The position numbers were made by a program, and so were the translations under genes. The notes beneath the pieces are model-generated. The model did not search any database, was not told where the DNA came from, and was given only the letters and a program-made list of their open reading frames with translations. A stretch of DNA of 20,101 nt from a virus, in IMG/VR virus record IMGVR_UViG_3300030101_003608, positions 1 through 20,101 of that record. One strand, given 5' to 3'. How positions within the stretch are numbered: position 1 is the first letter of the stretch; each line of letters begins with the position of its first letter. Positions 6,327 through 20,101 of the stretch are shown piece after piece.

Positions 6327-6330
6327 TTTA
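6324..6330 (-). promoter_or_regulatory. TAAAATG stop-start junction (giant protein to 50-residue gene)
   Basis: On the reverse strand the stop TAA and the next ATG are separated by a single A. This spacing is typical of termination-reinitiation, where ribosomes finishing one gene start the next. AGGTAAG lies about 11 bases upstream of the ATG and may add weak ribosome binding. Confidence 0.55.
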
Positions 6331-9300
6331 TCTTAACTTACCTGATTGTTCTATACCCTTTAATGTTTGAGGTAAGTCTGCAGTACTTCCAGTAATACCA
6401 ATAGCTCTAAATAAATGATTATAAATTTTAGGTTGACCCTTTTGTTTCCACCATAAATCCCCAGTCTTTTGTTGATAATAAGCTTTTTCATTACCGGTAA
6501 TATGCTTAATAATATCTTCCATTATTTTACCATATAATATTACAGTATTACCAAATGCAGCTGTAGTAGATGTAACAAGTTTCTGATAATCATCTAATCC
6601 AAAGTTTGTTACTCCAATTTGAGGTAGAGGAACAAAGGCTGTAACTTCTTGTTGTGTTCCTATAGTTAACAGTTGTGTTAAATTTTCCAAGTAACCTTTT
6701 AATTCAAAATCTTCTGAACCTAAAGGTCCTGATTTTTCTTTCATCTTTTTAAATCTATCAGGATCATCAGGATCATAACCAAATAAAAGAACTAAAGCTA
6801 ATGCTGCTGTAGCCATAATCATTACATCCATACCTGTTCTCATTAAATCAGTTTTTTCTTGGTCTGTTAGATAATGCCAATCTTGAAACTTATTTTGAAG
6901 TATTTTATTAAATGCTTTATATGTATTAATATAATATCCTATAGGTGTTGTACCTATTGCAAAATCATATCTAGCTTGAAACCTTTCAGGTGAATAAAAC
7001 CTTTTACCTTGAGATTTATCATAAGTGAAACCCCATTTATTATAGAACATTGGAAAGAACCATTTTCTCATAAATGTAAATAATCTGTAACCTGAGTAAA
7101 GATTACCTTCTGATTGAGCAAATTCATCATAAGCCCCATACAATCTTCTTGCAACTCCTTGATGTCTATTTTTAATAACCTTAAATTTATCACTATTTGC
7201 AATAATTATTGTATCCCCATCATCTATCTCAATAACAGACTTTATGTTATTATGCTTCTTTATTTGATCTACAGTAGTGTTATAGTAATCAGCAATTTCT
7301 TCAAGTGTTTCACCATCTGTAAACTTATGTTCTAATTTGCGATTACTATATTCAGGATCTATATTTTCTTTAAGCTTTAAGATTTTTGTTTTCTTGTCTA
7401 ATTCCCAAGCATCTATATACCTTAATTTACGTACCTTACCATTTTTTAGTTTTTGTTCTACAATTGTAGAGTTCATAAATGCACCATAAAGTTGAAGAGC
7501 AGCTTCCATTTCTAAATTCTTTCTAGCCATATACATCCACTCACCATTTAACAAATCTTTATATAAAGATCTAGTAACAGCTCTACCAAATTTATCTTTA
7601 GTTGCAAATGTAGAATCAAAAGCTTCTATTAATTGTGAGTTTAAAGAGCCCGGACCTATACTGTAAACATCTTTTGCAACCCATTGTGTCATTGCTTTAG
7701 CTGCCCAAACTCTACCTTTAGCATAATCTCTTTTATTTATAAACTCCCCTCCAGCCATTTCAATATAATTCTGCATTAACTGACCAAATCTATTTTTTAA
7801 ATCAGAAGGAAGATTAACAGCTAATGAAGATCGTGCAGATAACTTTTGAATTCTAGAAAATACTCTATCAAAAGTTTCCATTCCTTTACCACCTTTAAAC
7901 TTTCTACCATAATATTCTCTTTCAATTAAAGATCTAACCTGACCTAATCTATTATAGTTTCCTTTAGCTTTAACTGCTTGCAATTTACCAGATGTCATCA
8001 TTGCACCTCTACTATATACATTAGTTTTCTTTAAAGCATTATCCGGATCTTCTAAAGTTTCTAATATAGAATTTACCATTGGCAAAGTTTCTACTAACTT
8101 TTTCTGTCGTTCAATAGAATATAAATATCTCATCATATTTCGCAATACATCTGGATCAGTATTTTCTATATTAATATCAAATAAACCTGCAACAGGTATT
8201 TTTTCCACCTCTTCCCCTTCTAAAGTAGTTTGAACTAATCTATACTCTTGTGTATTATCATCATAAATAAAGTTATAATCATCAATTGATCTATCTTTTG
8301 CAGAAGTTAAATCTCTAAAGTACTGCAAAAAGTTTTCTTTAATTTGTTTAGACTTATCTCCAACTTTTCCTGATTGTATTACAGAAAGATTATCTCTTAA
8401 TATAAACCTAGGTAAATCTAAATAAAGTTTAGATGAGTTTGGCGCACCTTCTTGTGTTTTTAAATGTTGTTCTTTCATTGCTGCTAGCAACTGAGCTCTT
8501 GCAGAAGTAGGAGAATTTTGAATTTTTATAAACTCTTTATTTATATACTTAGACCCTTCAATATTTCTAGGTAAAAATTGATCTTTATTATTTATATGCT
8601 CACCTATAACTAGTTCAACTTGTCCTGTAGCTGGATTATATCCAGTCATATACTCAGGTTTTATTCTATATTCAGAATGTCTAGCATTACCTATAACAGG
8701 GATGCCATTTATTTTAACAGTAAATGTTTCTTTAGTTAGTGGATCAGTAAGTTCAGTAGTTTGATAGTATTCTTGATTAGAAGGTAAAGAAATTATATTA
8801 ACAATACTCTTTTGATAAAAATTTTGAAGACCTCTTTTACCTTTTTCATAACCTTGATACATAACATGATTATCAAAGAACCAATCTGAAAACTCATCAT
8901 TATCTGCAATTAATTTTTTTAGATCGTCAGTATTAAGAAAATCCTCTAGTTGTTCTGGCGTTTGAGCTTCTTCACCCATTTGATTTAAGTAATCATTAAA
9001 TGTATCTACATAATATTCAGTAGCAACTTTATCTGTTAATGCACCAAGCTCAGTATATATACTGTTTAATTCATTAGCTTCTTCTAATGATAAACCTGTA
9101 GCTGTTTGTTTTTCAAGTAGCCTAAAATACTCTTGCTTATTATCTTCAGTTAAAGCTTGAGGATTCTTTTTCATTACAGCAATAATAGCAGTAAGTCTTG
9201 AAGCTTCCCCTTTAGTTAAACCAGATGTTTTATCTAAACTAGCTTTATAGTCAATAGTTTTTTGTTGAAGAATTTTAATCTTTTTAATTTTATCTACTCC

Positions 9301-12300
9301 TAATTGATCTGGTACAGGTTGATTTAGACTGTCTTTAGCACCATATATTAGGTTATACATTTCAGAAAAAGTTTCAGAAATATCAATTTTAGAATCAGTC
9401 TTCATTTTTGCTTGAAGCTCTTTTAATCTAGAAGTTAACCTCATTTTAAGATCAAAGTATTCTTGAGTCTGCGCTATTCTTGTGTTCTGTCTAAGCCATT
9501 CTTCTTTAGCATCACGGAACTTTTGTGAATCTGACCCATATTTAGTGTCAATTAAGTTTATAAAATTATCATATGCATTTTGTAAAGAGTTAGGTCTAGC
9601 TTTAAATTCATAAAATCCTCTAGATGCATCTCTATATTCATTAAGGATTTTAGCAATAGAAAGATCATATACACCATCTTGAGGAGAGTCAACTTTAGGT
9701 GTACCATCTTCATAAGTATAAGAATGTAACATTTGATAATCTTTCCATAAAGCTTGCAAAGTAGAGTACTTTTGAAATTGTTCTAACTCATCTGAAATTT
9801 CATTAGCCTCATTGTTATATGTATCTAAAGCTCTTTTTCTAGCTTGTCTAGCTGCATCAGCAATTTCAGCAGGATATTTAGCGTAAATTTTATCTAACTC
9901 ATATACCTCTGGTATATATACATCATGCATAAAACTCCTTGTAAAATCATACAATGCTTGCTTTGCATTATCAATAGCTTCTTGATCTTCAGTTTCTTGC
10001 GCTTGTCTTAAATCATATTCTAACTTACCTAAATCATATCTCCACCCATTTGTAAATTTATCATGAAAAGCATAAACTTCTTTTCTAACAGGTTTTAAAT
10101 CAATTACATTATCATTTTTATCTCTTATAGGTTCTAAACTAAACATAGCATCTTTAGTAGCAACCATGTCAAGAATTTGTCTAGTTTTTAACTTATTGTA
10201 ACCCACTCTTGGTAGTAATTCAGCCATTTTACTTCTAAACTCATAAGAAGCTTTAAGAGCAGTTTGTTCCGCTTCTGTTCTTAAATTTTGAATAAATATA
10301 GCTAATCCACCTACTATAGGATCATTAGAAGATGTATAAGCTTCTAAATATCTATTAAAAAATGTTACATCATTTAGTTTACCAGATAAGCCATCTATAA
10401 TCTTATCCCTATTAATATTAAAATCATTATACTTTCTTACAAAATTTTGTATAAACTTTATCTTTATACCTTTTCTACTTAAAGCTTTATAATCTTCCTC
10501 CTTTAACTTTCCTTCAAGAGCTTTATTAAAAAAGTCTTCTATCTCTTGATTACTTAAGTTTTTACTCATAGCTTTAAACAAATTATTTTTTAGCTCTTTA
10601 ACTAAAAATTCATTCATATAAGCTGTAGTTTCTACATATAGATCTACATCATTTTCTTTATAAATTTCTTTTATAATATTATTAGCTCTTTCAAGATTAG
10701 CTCTGGTATTATTCATTAAGTTGAAGAATTCATTATCTTCATCAATATTAAATTTTGGTTTACCTTCACCTTGGTCTTGTGTAAAAAACTCATCAAATTG
10801 TGTAAACATATTACCATAACCATTGATTGTATTTCTATAAGTATATAAAAGTAATACAGCATCTCTTGAGCCAAAACGTTTACTTTTACGTAAAGCATCT
10901 AAATCTTTATAAATATTTTTAGCAATATTATCTACTACACCTACACTATTAACAAAGGCTCTTGATGAATTCAATAAATCTAACTGCCTTTCTTTTTCAG
11001 CTCTAATAACATCTTTTATAATTTGCTTTTTGCTAGCACCTTTTAAATCACTAACAGTCTGATAAGACTTTAACATATTTTTAATTTTAGGCGCTAACTG
11101 ACCCTCATCAAAAAGTGTTTTGTTTAATCTTTTTTGAAATGCTTCACTTTGAGAAGTATAATTAAAAGCTTTATTTAAAACTAAATTATTAGTAACATAC
11201 AGTTCGTTTAGTCCTTGTTGAAGATTATTTTCACTAATACCTTTAGTAAGATCCTGAGCCATCTCTTTTATATTTCTTGCATAAAATAAAACATCCTCAT
11301 TTGTAACATAATCTAATTGTAAATCATATGTTTCATTTAAAAGCTTATCTGCAAGCTCTTTCATTGTAGTAGATTCATTTATACCTGAAACATTAGAAGT
11401 TTGATAAACTTTTCTAAACATTTGTTTGATTGCATATAAAAGTTTTTTGATAAAGGCCATAAAACCTTTAGTTTCTACTTCTTCTGTAACTTGATTTACC
11501 GCTTTAACTTGCAATGAATATGTAAGCGCTTCATTTTTAAACTCTGAACTAGTTATGTTTAGTTCAGGATAATGACGTTTAACATGATTAATTATAAACT
11601 TTCCTTCATCAGTAGCTTGCAAGGTTGCATAAAGATTGTTAAACAATTCTTTATTCTCTATTTCTATAGCTTTAATAAAAGGATGGGCAAACTCGTGAAG
11701 TACTGTATCTAAATTTATATTATCTCCTACAGTATAGACTGTTCCTGCAAAATAAAATGCCGGTTCATTGTTATAAGGTTTTCCTTTACTGTTTAATAAC
11801 TTTTTTGCTTGAGCTTGTGTTACATTTGCAAACTGTATATTAGTTGATAAGGCAAGTTTTTGAGCTAACAATTTTGCAATTTCAATACCTTGAGACTTTT
11901 GTTGAGCTTTAGTATTAAGAGGAACTTCTTTTACAAGATTTTTAATTGCTTCTTGAGCTGCAGGATCAACAAAATAATAATTACCTTTTGTTTGAGCAGC
12001 GTAACCTTCTTGTGCTAATTTTGCAAAAAGATTTTTATCTTTTAAAGAATCTTTAAGTGTCTTACCTTGAGATATAGTATCAATACCTAAAACTTTTAAA
12101 GCGCTAATTGCATCTTTCATATTTTTAGATTCAACTTCTAAAACTTCTACAGTATTATCAGTTGATTTATATTTAACCGTCCCTACAACTTTATCATTTT
12201 TATATATAGTATTAACTTGATTAGCGCCTTCTGGGTTAGCTGTCATAAGAGTTACCTCATTTTCAAAAGGATTAGTTAAATCTACTGTAAGATCATTTTG

Positions 12301-14235
12301 ATTTTCATTAGTAAAAGCAAAATATCTAAAGCCCCGGTTTTTAAATTGGTAACCTGATTTATCTTCTACTTTAGGTATAAAGTAAATTAAATCTGTAAGA
12401 TCTTTACCTCTACCCATTTTTACCTTAGCTTCAAAAATTTGTTTCCATTCTTTATACCACTGTTTATACCCATCATATTGCTGAGGATAACTACCTTCTT
12501 TAGCTCTTAAAAAGAAATCTAACATATATACTTTAGGTTTTACTTTACCTATGTCTTTAACATTATATCCATTTTTAACATTATCTTGTGTTACCAGTTC
12601 TGTATCTGTAGGATGTTCAATAGTACCTGTAATTACAATAGAATCACCGGTTTTTAAACTATCCTTACCTATAAAGGTTCTAAGTAATTTAAATGTAGGA
12701 AACATTTGTTGAACATTTCTGTACCAACTTTGACCTTCAAGTAAAGGCGTTATCTCTTTAGTAAACTTTTTAGAATTTTTTTGCTGTTGTCTTTGGCTTA
12801 CACCAAATCTTTGTGAAAGCATTAACCCTCTTTCATCAATCCACCGTAAAAACTTTTGTGCATTTTCTTCTTTTCTAAATTGTTCAAGCTTTATAACACC
12901 ATCAATATCATGAAATTCTTCATCAACACTTCTAAGTACTCTACCATACTTTCTCAATGTAGCAGAACCAGAAAGAGCATAATCTATAAAAGGATGTCCA
13001 AATAACTTTTCAATTACATCTGCAACAAAAGGATCTTTAGCAATAGACTCTTCATAATCTTTTGCTTCATACAATTGACCCTTCATGTCATACCAATTAC
13101 CATCTTCTTCAGACAAATAATAGTTCCTTATAAACTTTTCATATTTTAACTCATATACATCATCAACTACATCTAAAACTAAATCTTCTAAAGCTTCATT
13201 ATTATATGTAGCAAATGCTTTATTGTTAAATATATTTTCTTGAATCCAATTATAAATTTGATTTATAAGCCTTATTAAAGTATTCTTAGCATACTTGTCT
13301 CTGTGACCTATTGACTCAAAATAAGCTTTATTAATATCCGGATTTCCTCTCTTAGTTCCAATAAACTTTTTATCTAATCCTACTTCAAGCATCTCAGAAA
13401 TAAATTCAATTATAGCTTGTCTGTGGGCCCAAAAGTTTTTAGTAGAGTTTTTCTTATTCCATTCAACTTCATCTTTGTTAAGTTCTTCATCTAAGTACAT
13501 TACTTGAAAATCTAACTCTTTTTTAAAGATTGAATCATCTCTGTTTTCTTGAGAAATCTTATCCCATTTAGCATATACATCATCATACTTATTCCAATTT
13601 TGTATATTAAACCAAAGATCTAAAGATGTTTTACTACCACGCCCTAAAAAAGAATAGATAATATAAGCAGATTGATTTAACAAAGCTTTATCTGTTACAT
13701 CAGTTTTTAACGCTAAAAACTTTTGAATCAAATCAAATGCTGCCATTGGATTTCCTTTTCTAAAGTTTAACCCTTTTAATAATTTATCGGCAGATAAATC
13801 TGTTTGTATACCTAGTCCACCTAAAAATGTTACCAGCTTCGACTGTAGTTCATTTTGAAATAGTTTGTTAACTTCATTAGCCTCAAGTTTACCTCTTTTG
13901 AAACTGGGATTAGGTAAATCTGATTCTTCTTCAAGGTCTCTTCTAATTTTTTCATCATCAATTGTTTTAAACATTTCATCATTTGGCTGTGCCCAAATTC
14001 TTCTTGCTACAGTATTTCTCCAATATGTAGAAGTTCTTTCATCAGTTGTTTCTGTATTATATGTAGAGAATAATAATTCTCCACCAAAATCTAGATCATA
14101 CTTTAATTCTGCATATCTAGTTAAGTCTTTATTATACTTTTCAAATGAAGCTACATTTAATACATCATTATAATATCCAAGTACTTCTTTATTTTTTAAA
14201 TACTCTAATGTTCTAGCTTTTGTTTCACAAACCAT
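6328..14235 (-). CDS. Giant multidomain virion-type protein with zincin, LysM and membrane segment
   Basis: A 2,635-residue, largely helical protein. In order: an N-terminal helical region; a possible nucleotidyltransferase motif, LSGSATLRKYG (421-431) then HDIDG (442-446), similar to the G-S/D-x-D core of AbiEii/MNT enzymes but with long spacing; a zinc-metallopeptidase motif HEFAH (847-851) with a likely third ligand, Glu902 in NEALT; a long charged, coiled-coil-like middle; a LysM repeat (about 2303-2346, DGETLEEIADYYNTTVDQIK then NNIK); and a hydrophobic helix (about 2469-2487, including ATAALALVLLFGY) followed by DPDDPD. Giant proteins with such mixed domains beside the RNA polymerase are typical of crAss-like phages and resemble the phage 'polyvalent' proteins delivered with DNA. 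Packaging in the particle, and a role in genome ejection, wall passage or processing of partners, are inferred. It starts one base after the polymerase stop, and no other start is needed. Confidence 0.88.
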   Translation of the reverse strand: MVCETKARTLEYLKNKEVLGYYNDVLNVASFEKYNKDLTRYAELKYDLDFGGELLFSTYNTETTDERTSTYWRNTVARRIWAQPNDEMFKTIDDEKIRRDLEEESDLPNPSFKRGKLEANEVNKLFQNELQSKLVTFLGGLGIQTDLSADKLLKGLNFRKGNPMAAFDLIQKFLALKTDVTDKALLNQSAYIIYSFLGRGSKTSLDLWFNIQNWNKYDDVYAKWDKISQENRDDSIFKKELDFQVMYLDEELNKDEVEWNKKNSTKNFWAHRQAIIEFISEMLEVGLDKKFIGTKRGNPDINKAYFESIGHRDKYAKNTLIRLINQIYNWIQENIFNNKAFATYNNEALEDLVLDVVDDVYELKYEKFIRNYYLSEEDGNWYDMKGQLYEAKDYEESIAKDPFVADVIEKLFGHPFIDYALSGSATLRKYGRVLRSVDEEFHDIDGVIKLEQFRKEENAQKFLRWIDERGLMLSQRFGVSQRQQQKNSKKFTKEITPLLEGQSWYRNVQQMFPTFKLLRTFIGKDSLKTGDSIVITGTIEHPTDTELVTQDNVKNGYNVKDIGKVKPKVYMLDFFLRAKEGSYPQQYDGYKQWYKEWKQIFEAKVKMGRGKDLTDLIYFIPKVEDKSGYQFKNRGFRYFAFTNENQNDLTVDLTNPFENEVTLMTANPEGANQVNTIYKNDKVVGTVKYKSTDNTVEVLEVESKNMKDAISALKVLGIDTISQGKTLKDSLKDKNLFAKLAQEGYAAQTKGNYYFVDPAAQEAIKNLVKEVPLNTKAQQKSQGIEIAKLLAQKLALSTNIQFANVTQAQAKKLLNSKGKPYNNEPAFYFAGTVYTVGDNINLDTVLHEFAHPFIKAIEIENKELFNNLYATLQATDEGKFIINHVKRHYPELNITSSEFKNEALTYSLQVKAVNQVTEEVETKGFMAFIKKLLYAIKQMFRKVYQTSNVSGINESTTMKELADKLLNETYDLQLDYVTNEDVLFYARNIKEMAQDLTKGISENNLQQGLNELYVTNNLVLNKAFNYTSQSEAFQKRLNKTLFDEGQLAPKIKNMLKSYQTVSDLKGASKKQIIKDVIRAEKERQLDLLNSSRAFVNSVGVVDNIAKNIYKDLDALRKSKRFGSRDAVLLLYTYRNTINGYGNMFTQFDEFFTQDQGEGKPKFNIDEDNEFFNLMNNTRANLERANNIIKEIYKENDVDLYVETTAYMNEFLVKELKNNLFKAMSKNLSNQEIEDFFNKALEGKLKEEDYKALSRKGIKIKFIQNFVRKYNDFNINRDKIIDGLSGKLNDVTFFNRYLEAYTSSNDPIVGGLAIFIQNLRTEAEQTALKASYEFRSKMAELLPRVGYNKLKTRQILDMVATKDAMFSLEPIRDKNDNVIDLKPVRKEVYAFHDKFTNGWRYDLGKLEYDLRQAQETEDQEAIDNAKQALYDFTRSFMHDVYIPEVYELDKIYAKYPAEIADAARQARKRALDTYNNEANEISDELEQFQKYSTLQALWKDYQMLHSYTYEDGTPKVDSPQDGVYDLSIAKILNEYRDASRGFYEFKARPNSLQNAYDNFINLIDTKYGSDSQKFRDAKEEWLRQNTRIAQTQEYFDLKMRLTSRLKELQAKMKTDSKIDISETFSEMYNLIYGAKDSLNQPVPDQLGVDKIKKIKILQQKTIDYKASLDKTSGLTKGEASRLTAIIAVMKKNPQALTEDNKQEYFRLLEKQTATGLSLEEANELNSIYTELGALTDKVATEYYVDTFNDYLNQMGEEAQTPEQLEDFLNTDDLKKLIADNDEFSDWFFDNHVMYQGYEKGKRGLQNFYQKSIVNIISLPSNQEYYQTTELTDPLTKETFTVKINGIPVIGNARHSEYRIKPEYMTGYNPATGQVELVIGEHINNKDQFLPRNIEGSKYINKEFIKIQNSPTSARAQLLAAMKEQHLKTQEGAPNSSKLYLDLPRFILRDNLSVIQSGKVGDKSKQIKENFLQYFRDLTSAKDRSIDDYNFIYDDNTQEYRLVQTTLEGEEVEKIPVAGLFDINIENTDPDVLRNMMRYLYSIERQKKLVETLPMVNSILETLEDPDNALKKTNVYSRGAMMTSGKLQAVKAKGNYNRLGQVRSLIEREYYGRKFKGGKGMETFDRVFSRIQKLSARSSLAVNLPSDLKNRFGQLMQNYIEMAGGEFINKRDYAKGRVWAAKAMTQWVAKDVYSIGPGSLNSQLIEAFDSTFATKDKFGRAVTRSLYKDLLNGEWMYMARKNLEMEAALQLYGAFMNSTIVEQKLKNGKVRKLRYIDAWELDKKTKILKLKENIDPEYSNRKLEHKFTDGETLEEIADYYNTTVDQIKKHNNIKSVIEIDDGDTIIIANSDKFKVIKNRHQGVARRLYGAYDEFAQSEGNLYSGYRLFTFMRKWFFPMFYNKWGFTYDKSQGKRFYSPERFQARYDFAIGTTPIGYYINTYKAFNKILQNKFQDWHYLTDQEKTDLMRTGMDVMIMATAALALVLLFGYDPDDPDRFKKMKEKSGPLGSEDFELKGYLENLTQLLTIGTQQEVTAFVPLPQIGVTNFGLDDYQKLVTSTTAAFGNTVILYGKIMEDIIKHITGNEKAYYQQKTGDLWWKQKGQPKIYNHLFRAIGITGSTADLPQTLKGIEQSGKLR
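7198..7329 (-). other. LysM domain inside the giant protein
   Basis: Residues about 2303-2346 match the LysM pattern: an aromatic/hydrophobic start, DGETLEEIA in place of the usual GDTLWSIA, YYNTTVDQIKKHNNI in place of ygtsvdeLkklNnl, and a final DGDTIII in place of GqkLkI. LysM modules bind N-acetylglucosamine polymers such as peptidoglycan. It sits between two segments with no LysM character, so it looks like an inserted module. Confidence 0.8.
11530..11697 (-). other. Zincin-type metallopeptidase core (HEFAH ... E) in the giant protein
   Basis: The codons for His847-Glu848-Phe-Ala-His851 lie at 11683-11697, and the likely third zinc ligand Glu902 is at 11530-11532. An upstream strand-like segment (EPAFYFAGTVYTVGDNINLDTVL) leads into the HExxH helix, as in gluzincin folds. 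All catalytic residues are present, so the domain is probably active. Candidate substrates are neighbouring virion giants or host proteins; the sequence does not decide between them. Confidence 0.72.
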
Positions 14236-14239
14236 TTTA
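14233..14239 (-). promoter_or_regulatory. TAAAATG stop-start junction (RNA polymerase to giant protein)
   Basis: The stop TAA of the polymerase gene and the ATG of the next giant are separated by one A, identical to the junction at 6324-6330. No Shine-Dalgarno-like sequence is visible in the 25 bases upstream (a run ending TTGTATATAA), so reinitiation by the same ribosomes is the likely route. Confidence 0.55.
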
Positions 14240-17200
14240 TATACAATTTAATGGGTTTTCTTTATCATAAATTTCTAATATCTGTGCATCATTGATCTCT
14301 TGATCAAAATTTTCAAACACAGTTCCAATTGTTTCAGATCCAGGATTTACAAATCCAAAATTATTTAACAAGCTCTTAGATAAAGATACAAATAATTCTT
14401 GAGGAGTTGAAGTAAGATTACCCATACCTTCAAAAGGTAAAGCAATCTGACCACCATTATTAATTATGTTATTAGCTTCTTGTATAGCAGTAGCCCAACT
14501 TGTTTCAATAAATTCAACAACTCCTTCTAATTCTTCTTCACTAAGTTGATCAAGATCATTTATCTGTTGTAAACCTAAAATCATAGGTATAGCATTACCA
14601 TTAGTCATATCTTTTAATCTAGCTTCATTTGTTAAAGCTGCATCTCCTTCTACTTGTAAATAAGTTGCCGGATATATAAATGTAACATTTGGATTTGCTT
14701 TAGCAATTGCAGACATTGTTTTTTCTGTACTTGATACATTATTATACATTGTTACACCAGGAGTATTTGTAGGCATAACTTTATATTGCATAAGCTTAAA
14801 AGGATCTTCTACAGCATCTGTATCAAATGAAAATTGATCCATAGAAGATTCAGTTAAATAATCTTTAAATCTAAATTTATTTGTATTGCTTAATAAATTA
14901 TTTGTAATAAAAGTACCTAGAAAATCACTTAACAATTGTTGTTTTGTAACAGCATCTGAATTTAAGTAATTATTTACTAGAGGACTAATTGTATCAATAA
15001 ATTTAGAAAAGTCTGTAAGCCCTAAAAAGTTATATTTTGTTCTTGTAATACCAGATTGCATTGCTGCAAAGTTTGTCATATTAGCAAACAAATCACTTAT
15101 ATAATTATTAGTTTGAACATCATCTACCTTTGCAACAGTTCTATCAGCTAAGTCAGCTAAATTTTTAGTATATACATTAGATTTAAAGTTATTAAGATCC
15201 TTATCATTTAAATATATATTATAAAAAGTTCTATCTGTATTAGTATCTACTTCTAATCTTTTTAATATATCATACTTACCCTTTAAACCATACTTATCTA
15301 CAATATTCTTATACTGAATTGCATATGCATATTCAGGATCATTAAACATGTGATATGCATTAGATGTATTAGTCAAAGCCATAAATGCTAAATGTTGCTC
15401 ATATATCCGATTTTTAAGTTTGTCTCCGGTTAAAGGACTTGTCTCTTTCTGCTCTATAAGTCTATCTTTAAATAGAGCACTCTCCATAAATTCTTTTTTA
15501 GAAGTTTCACTTCTTAAAGACTCTCTTTCTATAACAAATCTTAAATACTCTTGATAATTAGAAGAGCTGTTACCACTAAATACATTAATCTCTAAAGGAT
15601 ATAAACCTTTTTTACTATAGCTGTTTTTAGATTTAGAACCTCTTTTCCAAATTCCTGCTGTAAAATCGGATCTAATTTGTTTCTCATCTATGTATATCAC
15701 ATCATCTTTAACTGCAACTCCAGATCTTAAAGAATTAACAACTTTAACAGGAATTGTTTTGTCTAGAATTTTGTTATTATATATACTACCTAAGTAATAT
15801 TTTCTCACAGCATTTTGGTACAAGAAACTTAAAAAATCATTTCTAAATGTTTGTGGTACACTGATCTTGTAATCAGGGCCAAAGTTTTCATAAAATAATG
15901 ATCTATAAGCTTTATCTTCAACTACATCTGTTATATAATCAAATGATTCATCATACCTAAATGAAAATAGTTCTTTACCTAAATCAGAAATAAGTTTATT
16001 ATTAAAGAAAGAACTAATAATAGAATTTTCTATAACATCTGTTTTTAGTTTTTGATTTAATGTAGGTTCTGAATTTAAATTTTCAATATCTTGTTCACTT
16101 TGAAGCGCTGCTTGTACATCTGTCATTGTTGTAGTATCCGGATTAGCAGCAAGCTTTAATAGCTTAGTTCCTTCCATTTGATCTTCTGCTTGAAGATAAT
16201 GTAAAAACATAACCTTAGAAAGATCACTGCTATAGTAGGCTCTGCTCTTTTTTTCATATTCAGCAAGTTCTTGAAAATATTGGTCACTCGCTTTCATATA
16301 AACCCTTCCTTCTTTATCAACAAAGTCTACTTCAAATGTTTTGGATGGCTTTCTTGGTGAACCATCTTTAATAAGCTGATACATTTCATCTTCTGTAAAT
16401 GTTTTATCTGCTCTACCTTCAAATAAAGCTTTAGCAGATGCTATACCTTCATCATATCTTTCTTGTGAACTTTGAAAAGCTTTTCCAAAATATTTATTAA
16501 TAACACTTCTTCTAGCTGTATCTTTTACACCACCGTAAGCTTGTCTTTTAAGAGGTTCAGCAAAAGTACTTTTAAGTATTCTTTGTTCTTTTACATATTC
16601 TCTAACTAAAGGTTGAGATACAAAGTAAATTGCTTCTTTTACAGGTACTCCCGATTTAATTAAGGTTAATAACACAGGTGCTACTTCATAATTACCTTGT
16701 ATAAAGAATACCCAAGCATCTTTTTCAACATCAACCCACCCATTTATCATTTGTGAAATAACATCAGATACTTTATTTATACCATCTACATCGTATAAAT
16801 TTGACAGTGATACTGCACCATCTAGCTTATGATGACGTAAAAATAAATCAATCTGTCTAACATCACCTTCTTCAACCATATATTCTTTAGGCATTGATGC
16901 CCCTACATAATTAAATATGGTATTAAAAGTATTTTCAATTGCACCTAAACCAAGTGTCTTTTTACCTACAACATTAGATTCATGCTTATACAAGTTATAT
17001 CTAGCCTCAAGTATTCTAGTAGGACTAAGTGATCCTGTATCTTGTGTCATGATATTTGATTTAGGATTATACTCCATTACATATTGAGCTAAATCATCCG
17101 CAATTTCTTTTACTAGAATTGTACTGTTAGGTGTTGTAAGAGAAATAAAGTTTTCTGGTAATGAAAGTATTTCAGACATTATATCAATTAAATCATTTTC

Positions 17201-20101
17201 TGCAACCGCTTTTTGTGCATTAAAATAATCTTCTTTATCTTGACCAGTAAGTTCTGCACCTTTACTCATACTAAACTCAGCTAGCATAGTTTTATTTAAA
17301 GCTTTTCCTTCAGAGTTAATATGCTGCATAAATATTGAAAGCTTATCAATATCAAAGTCAGCTCCTGACTTAGCAACAATTTCTGCAGGAGGTATGATTA
17401 TATTACCTGCTTGTGGCGGCAAGAAATGAAAGATTTCCATATTCTCAATAGAGTTAAGACCCTGTACAGGAACACGGACACCAACCATAGTTATTGCTTT
17501 TCTGTTAGCACCATTATCAGCATCTAACCATTCATCATCTTTAATAGCTTGATTAAGTCTTTTTAATGACTCTTCTATATCATCAGTACCAATAACTTCT
17601 CCTTTATATTTTAAGTTTAAAAGATTTTCATAATCTCCTTGAAGTGCTACCATAACTTTCATAGCAGCTGTATACCCATCTTTTCTTGCATAATAAGTAG
17701 GTAAGAAGTTATCTCCTTGTAAATACTTTTGTAGTTCTGCAGATGTAGCTTTTCTAAAGCCTTCACCCATAATACCATTATACATTGCAGATGACTTCTG
17801 TACCAGTGCTTCACCTTTTACTTTCTGTTTAATGATTGTTTTATTAATTACAGATAATAAAACTCTCTCAATTTTATTAGACTCAGGATGAAATGATAAA
17901 TCAAATTGTAAATCTCCACTGTCAGTAACATCTATAATATCTATTAGTTGATCACTTAATACATCTTCTGAAGTTAGATTATCTCTAATTAAAGATGCCA
18001 GCTTTACTATACTTTCATCTGAGTTAGCTACTACATTTCCATCTTCATCTTGGACAAAGCCCATATCATCCAAAAGTTTTTGAGTAACAAGCTTAGTATA
18101 ATCTTCAACTGCATTTACATATCTTTTAACTAAAGCATCTTTTATCTTAGCTTTATCTTTTGTAACTATTCTTCCATTTTCATAAAGACCTTCTAATATT
18201 AACTTTCTTAATTGTGTAGAGAATATAGATACTCCTTTATACTTAGTAGGTACAGCAGTCTGATTTTTTAAGAACTCACCAAAAATAATATTCTTAGTAA
18301 AAGGTACAGAACTATCAATAGAACCATCTTCTCTTACTACTGCATCTCCATTACCTTCTTGGCTAATCTTAGAACCTGTTTGAAATGTTACATAGTCAAT
18401 TTGTTCTCTCATCATTTTATCATGAAGATCTGCAAGATTGCTATTATCTATAACACCAGGGATTAAAGGAGCTAATGAAAATTTATGAAATGACATAATA
18501 GGTAACATGTCAGATTTAATATTACCAAAGTACTGATATTTTAATGGTGGAAAGAATTGCTGAATATCAGATAGAGTTACATCTTTACCATCTGATTCAA
18601 CAATTTTTTTATAAAGATTTTCTTGAGGAGTAAACCATTCACCTTCCAGCTTCTTAAACATTCTATAAGCTTCAAAAGTAATGTAACCTTGACCATCAGC
18701 TGCCTCCATGTTTTTATATGAAGCTAAAACTTTAGTAGCAAATTCCTTAGCTTTTTTAGCAGCTTCAGTTTTCTTCATACCGGAATTCATAAACCTTCTA
18801 GTATACTCTGCTACATGTCGTTTAAAATAATCCTTATACTGAGGAGACTCTTTAATTTCAAACTCCTTCATGATTGCAGTATGCATAGTACCATCATAAG
18901 GTCTTACTTCATATTTTTTCTTTTCTGCATATAGCTGTTTAAACTTATCACTATTTATAAACTGTCTTGCTCTAGGATCTGTTCTTAAGCTTCTACCACC
19001 AGATGCAAATCCGGCATTTCTTTTATGAAATTCTTCTTTAGCGTGATTATACTGTACAGGATCTCCGTAACCCAAAATCAAAGTTTCAAAGTTGTGAATC
19101 CAAGAATTCCAAGTATAAGCATCAACTAAAACTCTTTCTATTTGGCCTTTACTTAAATCAGCATCAGCAGCTTCTTTAAAAATTACAGGGTCAACATACT
19201 TATTATCATTTAGTACACCCATGTTTTCAGTTCCTTGCTGTTCAAAATAAGCCAATACATCTGATTTAACTTGAGATCTTAAGTCCTCATTATCATTAAT
19301 CATGTCTTGTAAAGTCATTTCACCACTAGCTAGAGCTGCTTGGTTTTCATCTATAAGATCATAAAGAAGTTTCTGTGTATTTTCTCCATTTTCTTTAGTG
19401 CCATCAGTCAGTATATCATCAAATATTGTAAACGCTTCTCCTGCAACAACTTTTTGTCCTGTTCCTTTTCTTGTAGCAGGTTTATTGTATCCAGGAATGT
19501 CTAAGTTATTTTCTTTATACTTTGCGATCCTTTGAGCTTCCCCTGATAAATAACCTAATACAATATTAAAACCTTTATTCTGTCCAGGTGTAGATATACC
19601 AGTTAAATTTTTAGGATTAAAATCTTGAATATCTATATATAAAGACTTGTTTTTATTTTTACCATAACCTTCTAATTGTAAACCATCAAAAGTTAGCGCT
19701 AAAGATGTACTCTTAGAAGCGTGTCTCATAAATTCTTGAACACCAGCCTCTAAAAGTGTATGAAACTCTTGTAAGAATTTTGTAGTAACATCTGCGTTAG
19801 CTGTACTTACTCCTGTAAAGTTAGAACTATCAACTACATTAAGTTGAGTACCACCTATATTTTTTAGTTCTAATTTAAATCCGGGTTTCTTTTCACCATA
19901 TGTTGGACTATTAGGATCTAAATCAAACATGTTATTAAGCAGTACTGAATATTTAGATTGTGTATTTATCTCAGTAGATAACCATCTCATATGTTGAAAC
20001 AAACCATTTGGATCTGCAGACTCAGTAGCACTTTCACCTTCAGCTGTAAGCTCTTGCCAAGTATCTGCATAGTTTAAAGCTGTTATTAATCTTGTTGCAG
20101 T
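14237..20101 (-). CDS. Giant single-chain phage RNA polymerase, DFDID type (N-terminus outside window)
   Basis: The frame stays open to the right edge, giving 1,954 visible residues. A TTG at 20002 with no gap or start context is not a real start. Numbering from the edge, the catalytic loop SGADFDIDKLS has the three Mg-binding Asp at 915, 917 and 919 (17345-17359). Upstream, VGVRVPVQG (Arg876, Pro878) resembles the RxP element before the catalytic loop of bacterial beta-prime, and KVKGEALVQKSS (760-771) resembles its GKRVDxSxRS strand. DFDID in place of cellular DFDGD is the hallmark of crAss-like virion RNA polymerases (phi14:2 gp66, about 2,200 residues) related to YonO and eukaryotic RNA-dependent polymerases. 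This enzyme is expected to be packaged, injected and used to transcribe early genes in the host cytoplasm; that is family knowledge, not seen here. The C-terminal approximately 1,000 residues after the loop are helical, without other motifs I recognise. Confidence 0.93.
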   Translation of the reverse strand, partial: TATRLITALNYADTWQELTAEGESATESADPNGLFQHMRWLSTEINTQSKYSVLLNNMFDLDPNSPTYGEKKPGFKLELKNIGGTQLNVVDSSNFTGVSTANADVTTKFLQEFHTLLEAGVQEFMRHASKSTSLALTFDGLQLEGYGKNKNKSLYIDIQDFNPKNLTGISTPGQNKGFNIVLGYLSGEAQRIAKYKENNLDIPGYNKPATRKGTGQKVVAGEAFTIFDDILTDGTKENGENTQKLLYDLIDENQAALASGEMTLQDMINDNEDLRSQVKSDVLAYFEQQGTENMGVLNDNKYVDPVIFKEAADADLSKGQIERVLVDAYTWNSWIHNFETLILGYGDPVQYNHAKEEFHKRNAGFASGGRSLRTDPRARQFINSDKFKQLYAEKKKYEVRPYDGTMHTAIMKEFEIKESPQYKDYFKRHVAEYTRRFMNSGMKKTEAAKKAKEFATKVLASYKNMEAADGQGYITFEAYRMFKKLEGEWFTPQENLYKKIVESDGKDVTLSDIQQFFPPLKYQYFGNIKSDMLPIMSFHKFSLAPLIPGVIDNSNLADLHDKMMREQIDYVTFQTGSKISQEGNGDAVVREDGSIDSSVPFTKNIIFGEFLKNQTAVPTKYKGVSIFSTQLRKLILEGLYENGRIVTKDKAKIKDALVKRYVNAVEDYTKLVTQKLLDDMGFVQDEDGNVVANSDESIVKLASLIRDNLTSEDVLSDQLIDIIDVTDSGDLQFDLSFHPESNKIERVLLSVINKTIIKQKVKGEALVQKSSAMYNGIMGEGFRKATSAELQKYLQGDNFLPTYYARKDGYTAAMKVMVALQGDYENLLNLKYKGEVIGTDDIEESLKRLNQAIKDDEWLDADNGANRKAITMVGVRVPVQGLNSIENMEIFHFLPPQAGNIIIPPAEIVAKSGADFDIDKLSIFMQHINSEGKALNKTMLAEFSMSKGAELTGQDKEDYFNAQKAVAENDLIDIMSEILSLPENFISLTTPNSTILVKEIADDLAQYVMEYNPKSNIMTQDTGSLSPTRILEARYNLYKHESNVVGKKTLGLGAIENTFNTIFNYVGASMPKEYMVEEGDVRQIDLFLRHHKLDGAVSLSNLYDVDGINKVSDVISQMINGWVDVEKDAWVFFIQGNYEVAPVLLTLIKSGVPVKEAIYFVSQPLVREYVKEQRILKSTFAEPLKRQAYGGVKDTARRSVINKYFGKAFQSSQERYDEGIASAKALFEGRADKTFTEDEMYQLIKDGSPRKPSKTFEVDFVDKEGRVYMKASDQYFQELAEYEKKSRAYYSSDLSKVMFLHYLQAEDQMEGTKLLKLAANPDTTTMTDVQAALQSEQDIENLNSEPTLNQKLKTDVIENSIISSFFNNKLISDLGKELFSFRYDESFDYITDVVEDKAYRSLFYENFGPDYKISVPQTFRNDFLSFLYQNAVRKYYLGSIYNNKILDKTIPVKVVNSLRSGVAVKDDVIYIDEKQIRSDFTAGIWKRGSKSKNSYSKKGLYPLEINVFSGNSSSNYQEYLRFVIERESLRSETSKKEFMESALFKDRLIEQKETSPLTGDKLKNRIYEQHLAFMALTNTSNAYHMFNDPEYAYAIQYKNIVDKYGLKGKYDILKRLEVDTNTDRTFYNIYLNDKDLNNFKSNVYTKNLADLADRTVAKVDDVQTNNYISDLFANMTNFAAMQSGITRTKYNFLGLTDFSKFIDTISPLVNNYLNSDAVTKQQLLSDFLGTFITNNLLSNTNKFRFKDYLTESSMDQFSFDTDAVEDPFKLMQYKVMPTNTPGVTMYNNVSSTEKTMSAIAKANPNVTFIYPATYLQVEGDAALTNEARLKDMTNGNAIPMILGLQQINDLDQLSEEELEGVVEFIETSWATAIQEANNIINNGGQIALPFEGMGNLTSTPQELFVSLSKSLLNNFGFVNPGSETIGTVFENFDQEINDAQILEIYDKENPLNCI
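17345..17359 (-). other. RNA polymerase catalytic DFDID codons
   Basis: These five codons encode D-F-D-I-D, the metal-binding loop of the second double-psi beta-barrel. All three Asp are intact, so the enzyme is predicted to be active. The Ile in place of Gly at the fourth position separates this group from cellular multisubunit polymerases (DFDGD). Confidence 0.92.

Follow-up and report, generated by a model that had tools for sequence, protein, structure and literature searches.

Among the virion proteins of crAss-like phages, gp49 of phiCrAss001 and gp76 of phi14:2 are close in type to the protein described here. gp49 was found in virions by mass spectrometry (MS) and was named a 'putative RNA-polymerase subunit' (PMC10172136). 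gp76 (AGO48954) is a virion 'structural protein' by MS according to its record annotation, and it is listed in RefSeq as 'RNA polymerase accociated protein'. Two relatives are thus placed in virions by the literature and by record annotation, and such cargo is thought to be ejected. A second described system is that of the polyvalent proteins, large, transferred multidomain proteins in which zincin, nucleotidyltransferase (NTase), GNAT, ADP-ribosyltransferase (ART) and nuclease domains recur (Iyer et al. 2017, PMC5512222); the first four of these are listed there with the domains that act on proteins. N4-like virion RNA polymerases (vRNAPs) have been described as always fused to a zincin (PMC5512222), and in the N4 structure paper an HExxH subdomain adjoins the polymerase (PMC12633501). 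The polyvalent-protein paper, PMC5512222, makes no mention of crAss phages. Furthermore, in the transcription block, Yutin et al. 2021 noted large proteins of several domains as well as a PDDEXK domain (PMC7886860). Here, we analysed a window of 20,101 nucleotides at the start of a viral contig of 110,525 bases (IMG/VR record IMGVR_UViG_3300030101_003608), and in it the gene of a giant protein, P0001, that resembles the polyvalent proteins, including the N4-like fusion of vRNAP and zincin, in its probable domain content, a mixture of a putative zincin, a putative NTase and a GNAT-like fold. We consider it likely that P0001 is a polyvalent-type cargo protein that is ejected together with the polymerase and whose conserved core carries exchangeable enzyme modules.

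P0001 is encoded by a single open reading frame (ORF), from an ATG at 14235 to a stop codon at 6328. An earlier, sequence-only reading of the window had described an uninterrupted frame of 2,635 residues that holds the zinc protease, LysM, possible NTase and membrane helix motifs, and the ORF and its translation bear this out; the strand, absent from that reading, is minus, and the plus strand across 6328-14235 is riddled with stop codons. IMG/VR yielded four related contigs. One of these, L010, encodes a full-length orthologue with 70% amino acid identity, and the differences between the two genes by codon position (634/398/1074) show coding constraint. A search of 50,697 annotated phage records with the whole of P0001 (tblastn) gave no match, and for this reason the assignment of the protein to a family required profiles. 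Further scans of viral contigs returned contigs already found or none, and a scan of genome contigs gave no relative of P0001. A viral-contig scan with an alignment of the NTase-zincin part added one distant relative, L028.

The C-terminal 730 or so residues of P0001 match an alignment of 22 Crassvirales proteins of the phi14:2 gp76 / phiCrAss001 gp49 type over 600 columns, with Prob 99.6 and E 1.5e-23 (hhalign); in five controls with shuffled columns, E was never below 0.05. The first 94 residues of P0001 match the N-terminus of phi14:2 gp76 with E 1.8e-8, when a profile of P0001 and its orthologues is searched against the phi14:2 genome. These profile comparisons place P0001, in divergent and enlarged form, in the order-wide Crassvirales gp49 family, to which phi14:2 gp76 and phiCrAss001 gp49 belong. 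The order of the genes agrees with this: a vRNAP gene followed by a gp49-type gene is common to phi14:2, phiCrAss001, cr128_1, cr111_1 and the P0001 locus. The proposal that the phage carrying P0001 is crAss-like is supported. The source genome has PHROG matches to the phage MCP, portal and TerL families; in pairwise comparison, its TerL is about 25% identical both to Crassvirales and to non-Crassvirales Flavobacterium phages.

The gene of phi14:2 gp76 lies directly behind the vRNAP gene; the first 94 or so residues of gp76 are homologous to those of P0001, and it has an HExxH domain before the same core, with a hydrophobic helix near the C-terminus. However, gp76 has 1421 amino acids as compared with 2635, and neither a LysM nor an NTase motif nor a GNAT-like block was recognised in it. 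phiCrAss001 gp49 shares with P0001 the gene order, the core, the hydrophobic helix and an N-terminal cysteine, but it has 1349 amino acids, and no HExxH, ART or LysM was found in it. The suggestion that P0001 probably travels in the phage particle gains support from the detection of both relatives in virions. A cysteine within residues 2 to 6 is present in 20/20 complete gp49-type proteins examined and in 10/278 other ORFs; the corresponding p of 5e-24 is overstated, since these proteins are relatives of one another and were picked as a group once the pattern had been noticed. In P0001 this cysteine is residue 3, and its first three codons are at 14227-14235. Polymerases that are unfused at their N-terminus likewise carry a cysteine near it.

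In contrast to the core, the N-terminal half is modular and appears exchangeable across the gp49-type relatives. ART-PolyVal, an ADP-ribosyltransferase, is found above the curated cut-off in cr130_1, cr1_1, cr4_1 and cr56_1, and cr1_1 also matches an exonuclease family. An HExxH domain is found ahead of the core in phi14:2, cr1_1, cr130_1 and cr4_1; the HExxH of cr56_1 may be unrelated. These Suoliviridae members (cr130_1 gp80, cr1_1, cr4_1 and cr56_1) resemble P0001 in having N-terminal enzyme modules before the same core, but their N-terminal module is ART-PolyVal instead of an NTase and a GNAT-like fold, and no LysM was found in them. In L028, the core protein (L028:2277-8348) starts with a PDDEXK domain, with PDDEXK_1 above cut-off, and the equivalent of P0001 residues 101-680 (39% identity, E 1e-85), including the NTase motif, has its own gene immediately upstream. 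That separate gene (L028:2-2275) opens with a stretch that, by eye, looks GNAT-like. As judged from the domain matches, the ART and PDDEXK modules of the relatives are firm and the NTase, GNAT-like and zincin modules of P0001 are probable.

The sequence-only reading had proposed both a zinc protease motif around residues 847-902 and a possible NTase, and both motifs are present. HEFAH at 847-851 is the sole HExxH in P0001. The residues H847, E848, H851 and E902 are invariant in both orthologues that cover the region, L010 and L009. The proposed third zinc ligand, E902, comes from the segment FKNE[AV]LTYSLQ, which is kept in L010 and L009, and an EFxxE pattern is seen in the relatives. When the 847-902 region was compared by profile with the HExxH domains found in related cargo proteins, the match had Prob 88% and E 2.9e-6, while six shuffled controls gave E of 0.08 or higher; the match persists, weaker, when the HExxH is masked (E 6e-4). 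The HExxH domains of the relatives themselves give zincin-family matches in Pfam, all of them below threshold. This region is thus a probable zincin. We rejected the idea that it is a copy of the gp47-type zincin, because a direct alignment of the two gave Prob 0.9%.

The probable Pol-beta-type NTase, at residues 405-640 or so, is recognised by the motif GSATLRKYG...VDEEFHDID at 423-445 (GSATLRKYGRVLRSVDEEFHDID). The GS...DxD and a later Asp at 573, in LDFF/VDFF, are invariant in four sequences, including that of L028 at 38% identity, and a low-confidence AlphaFold2 model places this third Asp on a strand. The next part, residues 660-760 or so, is the sole well-modelled block (predicted local distance difference test, pLDDT, of 60-82) of an N-terminal AlphaFold2 model that is otherwise poor, with a mean pLDDT of 45. 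Foldseek against the PDB with this low-confidence model gave, among the 50 matches listed, nearly all GNATs (best E 2.3e-3, prob 1.00), and several of the top viral structure matches are likewise GNATs. We placed these matches on the 660-760 block because of the model confidence and the order of the secondary structure elements. The model and its consistent matches suggest a GNAT-like fold that probably lacks the acetyl-CoA loop. Weak matches in P0001 such as GCR1_C and Band_7 were under the cut-off and were discarded.

The core of P0001 contains the LysM module expected from the sequence-only reading, since the curated Pfam model PF01476 matches it with 22.4 bits over a cut-off of 20.9, and two orthologues with 38 and 27.5 bits. 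This module corresponds to a gap in the family alignment and is absent from L028 and the other family members examined, and it is therefore a lineage-specific insertion in the core. That it serves for binding of peptidoglycan, as had been suggested, was not supported: nothing links this inserted domain to peptidoglycan. Another giant of the cargo region of this genome (1603 amino acids; G000:41019-45830, L004, minus strand) begins with a LysM, at 36.6 bits. Of the membrane helix of the sequence-only reading, the helix itself stands, as residues 2468-2486 are the most hydrophobic 19-residue window of P0001 (Kyte-Doolittle value 2.04). A separate membrane module does not, because a similar, profile-aligned helix lies about 130-170 residues from the C-terminal end in most family members and is thus a core element conserved across the order; its acquisition as a new element was rejected on the same grounds. 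The coordinates of all features are given in Table 1.

Table 1 Features of P0001 and its upstream neighbour, with positions in the 20,101-nucleotide window.
Feature	Residues	Position	Strand	Basis
Whole gene P0001, gp49-type (phi14:2 gp76-type) RNA polymerase-associated cargo protein	1-2635	6328..14235	-	ORF, translation, orthologues at 64-72% identity
N-terminal region homologous to phi14:2 gp76 N-terminus; Cys3	1-94	13954..14235	-	Profile search
Pol-beta-type nucleotidyltransferase module (probable); GS...DID 423-445, later Asp in LDFF at 573	~405-640	12316..13023	-	Motif, conservation
GNAT acetyltransferase-like fold	~660-760	11956..12258	-	AlphaFold2 block, Foldseek
Zincin metallopeptidase (probable); HEFAH 847-851 (11683-11697), proposed third ligand E902 (11530-11532)	~830-960	11356..11748	-	Conservation, profile match
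gp49-type C-terminal core	~1890-2615	6391..8568	-	hhalign to 22-member Crassvirales alignment
LysM domain, inserted in core	2306-2345	7201..7320	-	PF01476 above cut-off
Hydrophobic helix (candidate membrane)	2468-2486	6778..6834	-	Hydropathy, profile alignment
vRNAP (P0002), C-terminal part, upstream neighbour; runs off window into 10-N gap		14237..20101	-	BLAST, hhalign

The upstream neighbour, P0002, stops 1 nucleotide ahead of the P0001 start. It carries the motif SGADFDIDK, with DFDID at 17345-17359, and it matches a crAss-like vRNAP with E 3e-13 (BLAST) and the vRNAP alignment with Prob 100 and E 6.9e-39 (hhalign). A scaffold gap of 10 N is located at the window edge (G000:20102-20111; L003:1103-1112). 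The 1954-amino-acid polymerase part and a 1632-amino-acid ORF upstream of the gap probably belong to a single protein, with a length of about 3,590 amino acids or more. The polymerase-side giant (G000:20086-24984; L003:1087-5985, minus strand), just outside the window, contains a second probable zincin, HEAWH...EELLAEEYRSYA, whose domain shares homology with the HEA[FY]H domain close to the C-terminal end of phiCrAss001 gp47 and its relatives. Flavobacterium phage Fpv3, whose classification places it outside Crassvirales, encodes a polymerase-like giant with DYDID and, at the C-terminal end, an HExxH domain (L014:33939-46802); a large gene starting MAC (L014:46832-50000) follows, which makes the same layout. 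Further HExxH motifs were seen in a structural-block protein of the source genome (HEISH at residue 396; G000:45832-48918) and in phi14:2 gp81 (HEFTH and HEFIH; L024:15361-17142); by their motifs these two proteins possibly form a third zincin class.

Annotation had already placed a zincin in a crAss protein that is associated with the polymerase. For p-crAssphage, an 'RNAP associated protein fused to zincinprotease' is annotated (MW067000), and this cargo protein resembles P0001 in that respect. However, its gene precedes that of the polymerase, in the gp47-type position, and the P0001 HExxH domain does not align directly with the zincin of that type. In the openly licensed literature we found no report of the gp49 family as polyvalent or of ART-PolyVal in it, and no description of a combination of NTase, GNAT-like, zincin and LysM domains.

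We infer the catalytic activities, the membrane contact, the targets and the order of events in the following model of P0001. The protein would be made together with the polymerase and then packaged. It would be ejected through the tail partly unfolded and would refold in the host, where the core may hold it alongside either the polymerase or the inner membrane. The zincin would most likely cleave P0001 itself, freeing the modules, or would otherwise cleave a host target. The NTase may modify a host protein or nucleic acid in a way that favours early infection. P0001 looks more like such an injected multi-tool than what the usual label of its family, RNA-polymerase subunit, implies. Several points weigh against this model. 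The presence of P0001 in the virions of its own phage is deduced from its relatives. No Pfam or PDB sequence profile recognises the zincin region, for which reason that module is graded as no better than probable, and the NTase region has no Pfam match, with one chance match among PDB sequence profiles. The AlphaFold2 models, which had an input alignment of four sequences, are of low confidence at 847-902 and poor overall (mean pLDDT 45 for the N-terminal model and 34 for the C-terminal core, the latter unusable for structure search), so neither the zincin nor the NTase fold is confirmed by them. The acetyl-CoA loop (Q/RxxGxG/A) of the GNAT-like part seems, by eye, to be replaced by SKNMKDAISAL, and among the enzyme modules this part shows the lowest conservation (41-58%); for these two reasons it may be inactive. 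Moreover, no ART, PDDEXK or HExxH was found in phiCrAss001 gp49 and several other family members, and since no enzyme module can be recognised in them, the core itself must do some job.

That job could be the one that the annotation of the relatives names. P0001 would then be an accessory or structural subunit of the polymerase whose core binds the vRNAP and whose N-terminal domains are a scaffold or decayed relics, with no separate effector activity. Phages such as crAss002 and C0521BD4 have the core and the catalytic subunit fused in one protein, and the bare phiCrAss001 gp49 and the degenerate-looking GNAT-like part of P0001 also fit. Yet HExxH and GS...DID are intact in orthologues that have diverged by 30-36%, the ART and PDDEXK modules of the relatives exceed curated cut-offs, and an exchange of modules is unexpected for a scaffold, so that we regard a plain subunit as unlikely. 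Nor do we favour the opposite extreme, that a long protein with some unrelated function contains these motifs by chance. The zincin and the NTase have no curated match, as such an explanation would have it, but 0.014 HExxH are expected from the composition of P0001 and the motif is kept in orthologues, the similarity to the domain of the relatives outlasts the masking of the HExxH, and the LysM is above its curated cut-off; coincidence is very improbable.

Two further explanations assign P0001 to the envelope or to the capsid. As a cell-envelope ejection protein, it would hold peptidoglycan by its LysM and enter the inner membrane by its helix, aiding the passage of DNA and cargo. The LysM is genuine, the helix is conserved in the family, and the second LysM is in another cargo gene of the same genome. 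However, the LysM is poorly conserved among orthologues (45-57%) and, being absent from the other members examined, it cannot be the main job of the gp49 family. In most members the helix has no more than moderate hydrophobicity and might be buried, and the channel role in phiCrAss001 has been proposed for gp45 and gp46, not for gp49 (PMC10172136). We therefore find an envelope function quite unlikely. Less likely still is a zincin that acts as a virion-maturation protease, cutting down the giant cargo proteins while they are inside the capsid and the phage has yet to be released. In phage P1, DdrB undergoes processing ahead of packaging, for which Iyer et al. suggest autoproteolysis by the DdrB zincin (PMC5512222), and the polymerase-side giant of this genome has its own probable zincin. 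On the other hand, the zincin-bearing N4 vRNAP is packaged unprocessed (PMC5512222), and the virions of phiCrAss001 contain gp49, a protein with no HExxH, which means that the gp49 family does not need a zincin. An ejected, polyvalent-type cargo protein with exchangeable modules is the reading that we retain for P0001.

This reading can be extended from P0001 to its family. The gp49-type 'RNA-polymerase subunits' could be, across the order, a chassis for injected effectors and not polymerase subunits, in which all members would have in common a cysteine near the N-terminus and a conserved core in contact with the membrane, and each lineage would add its own host-modifying enzymes (NTase, GNAT-like, ADP-ribosyltransferase, nuclease or zincin). 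We put this forward tentatively, as a possibility that falls somewhat short of an even chance. It offers a likely function for the gp49 family, in which the N-terminal half accounts for most of the differences between members. If the family does bring exchangeable enzymes into the host, the modules would be separately testable in the cultured phages phi14:2, phiCrAss001 and DAC15, and the host would be reprogrammed by proteins made in advance, ahead of the transcription of any phage gene.

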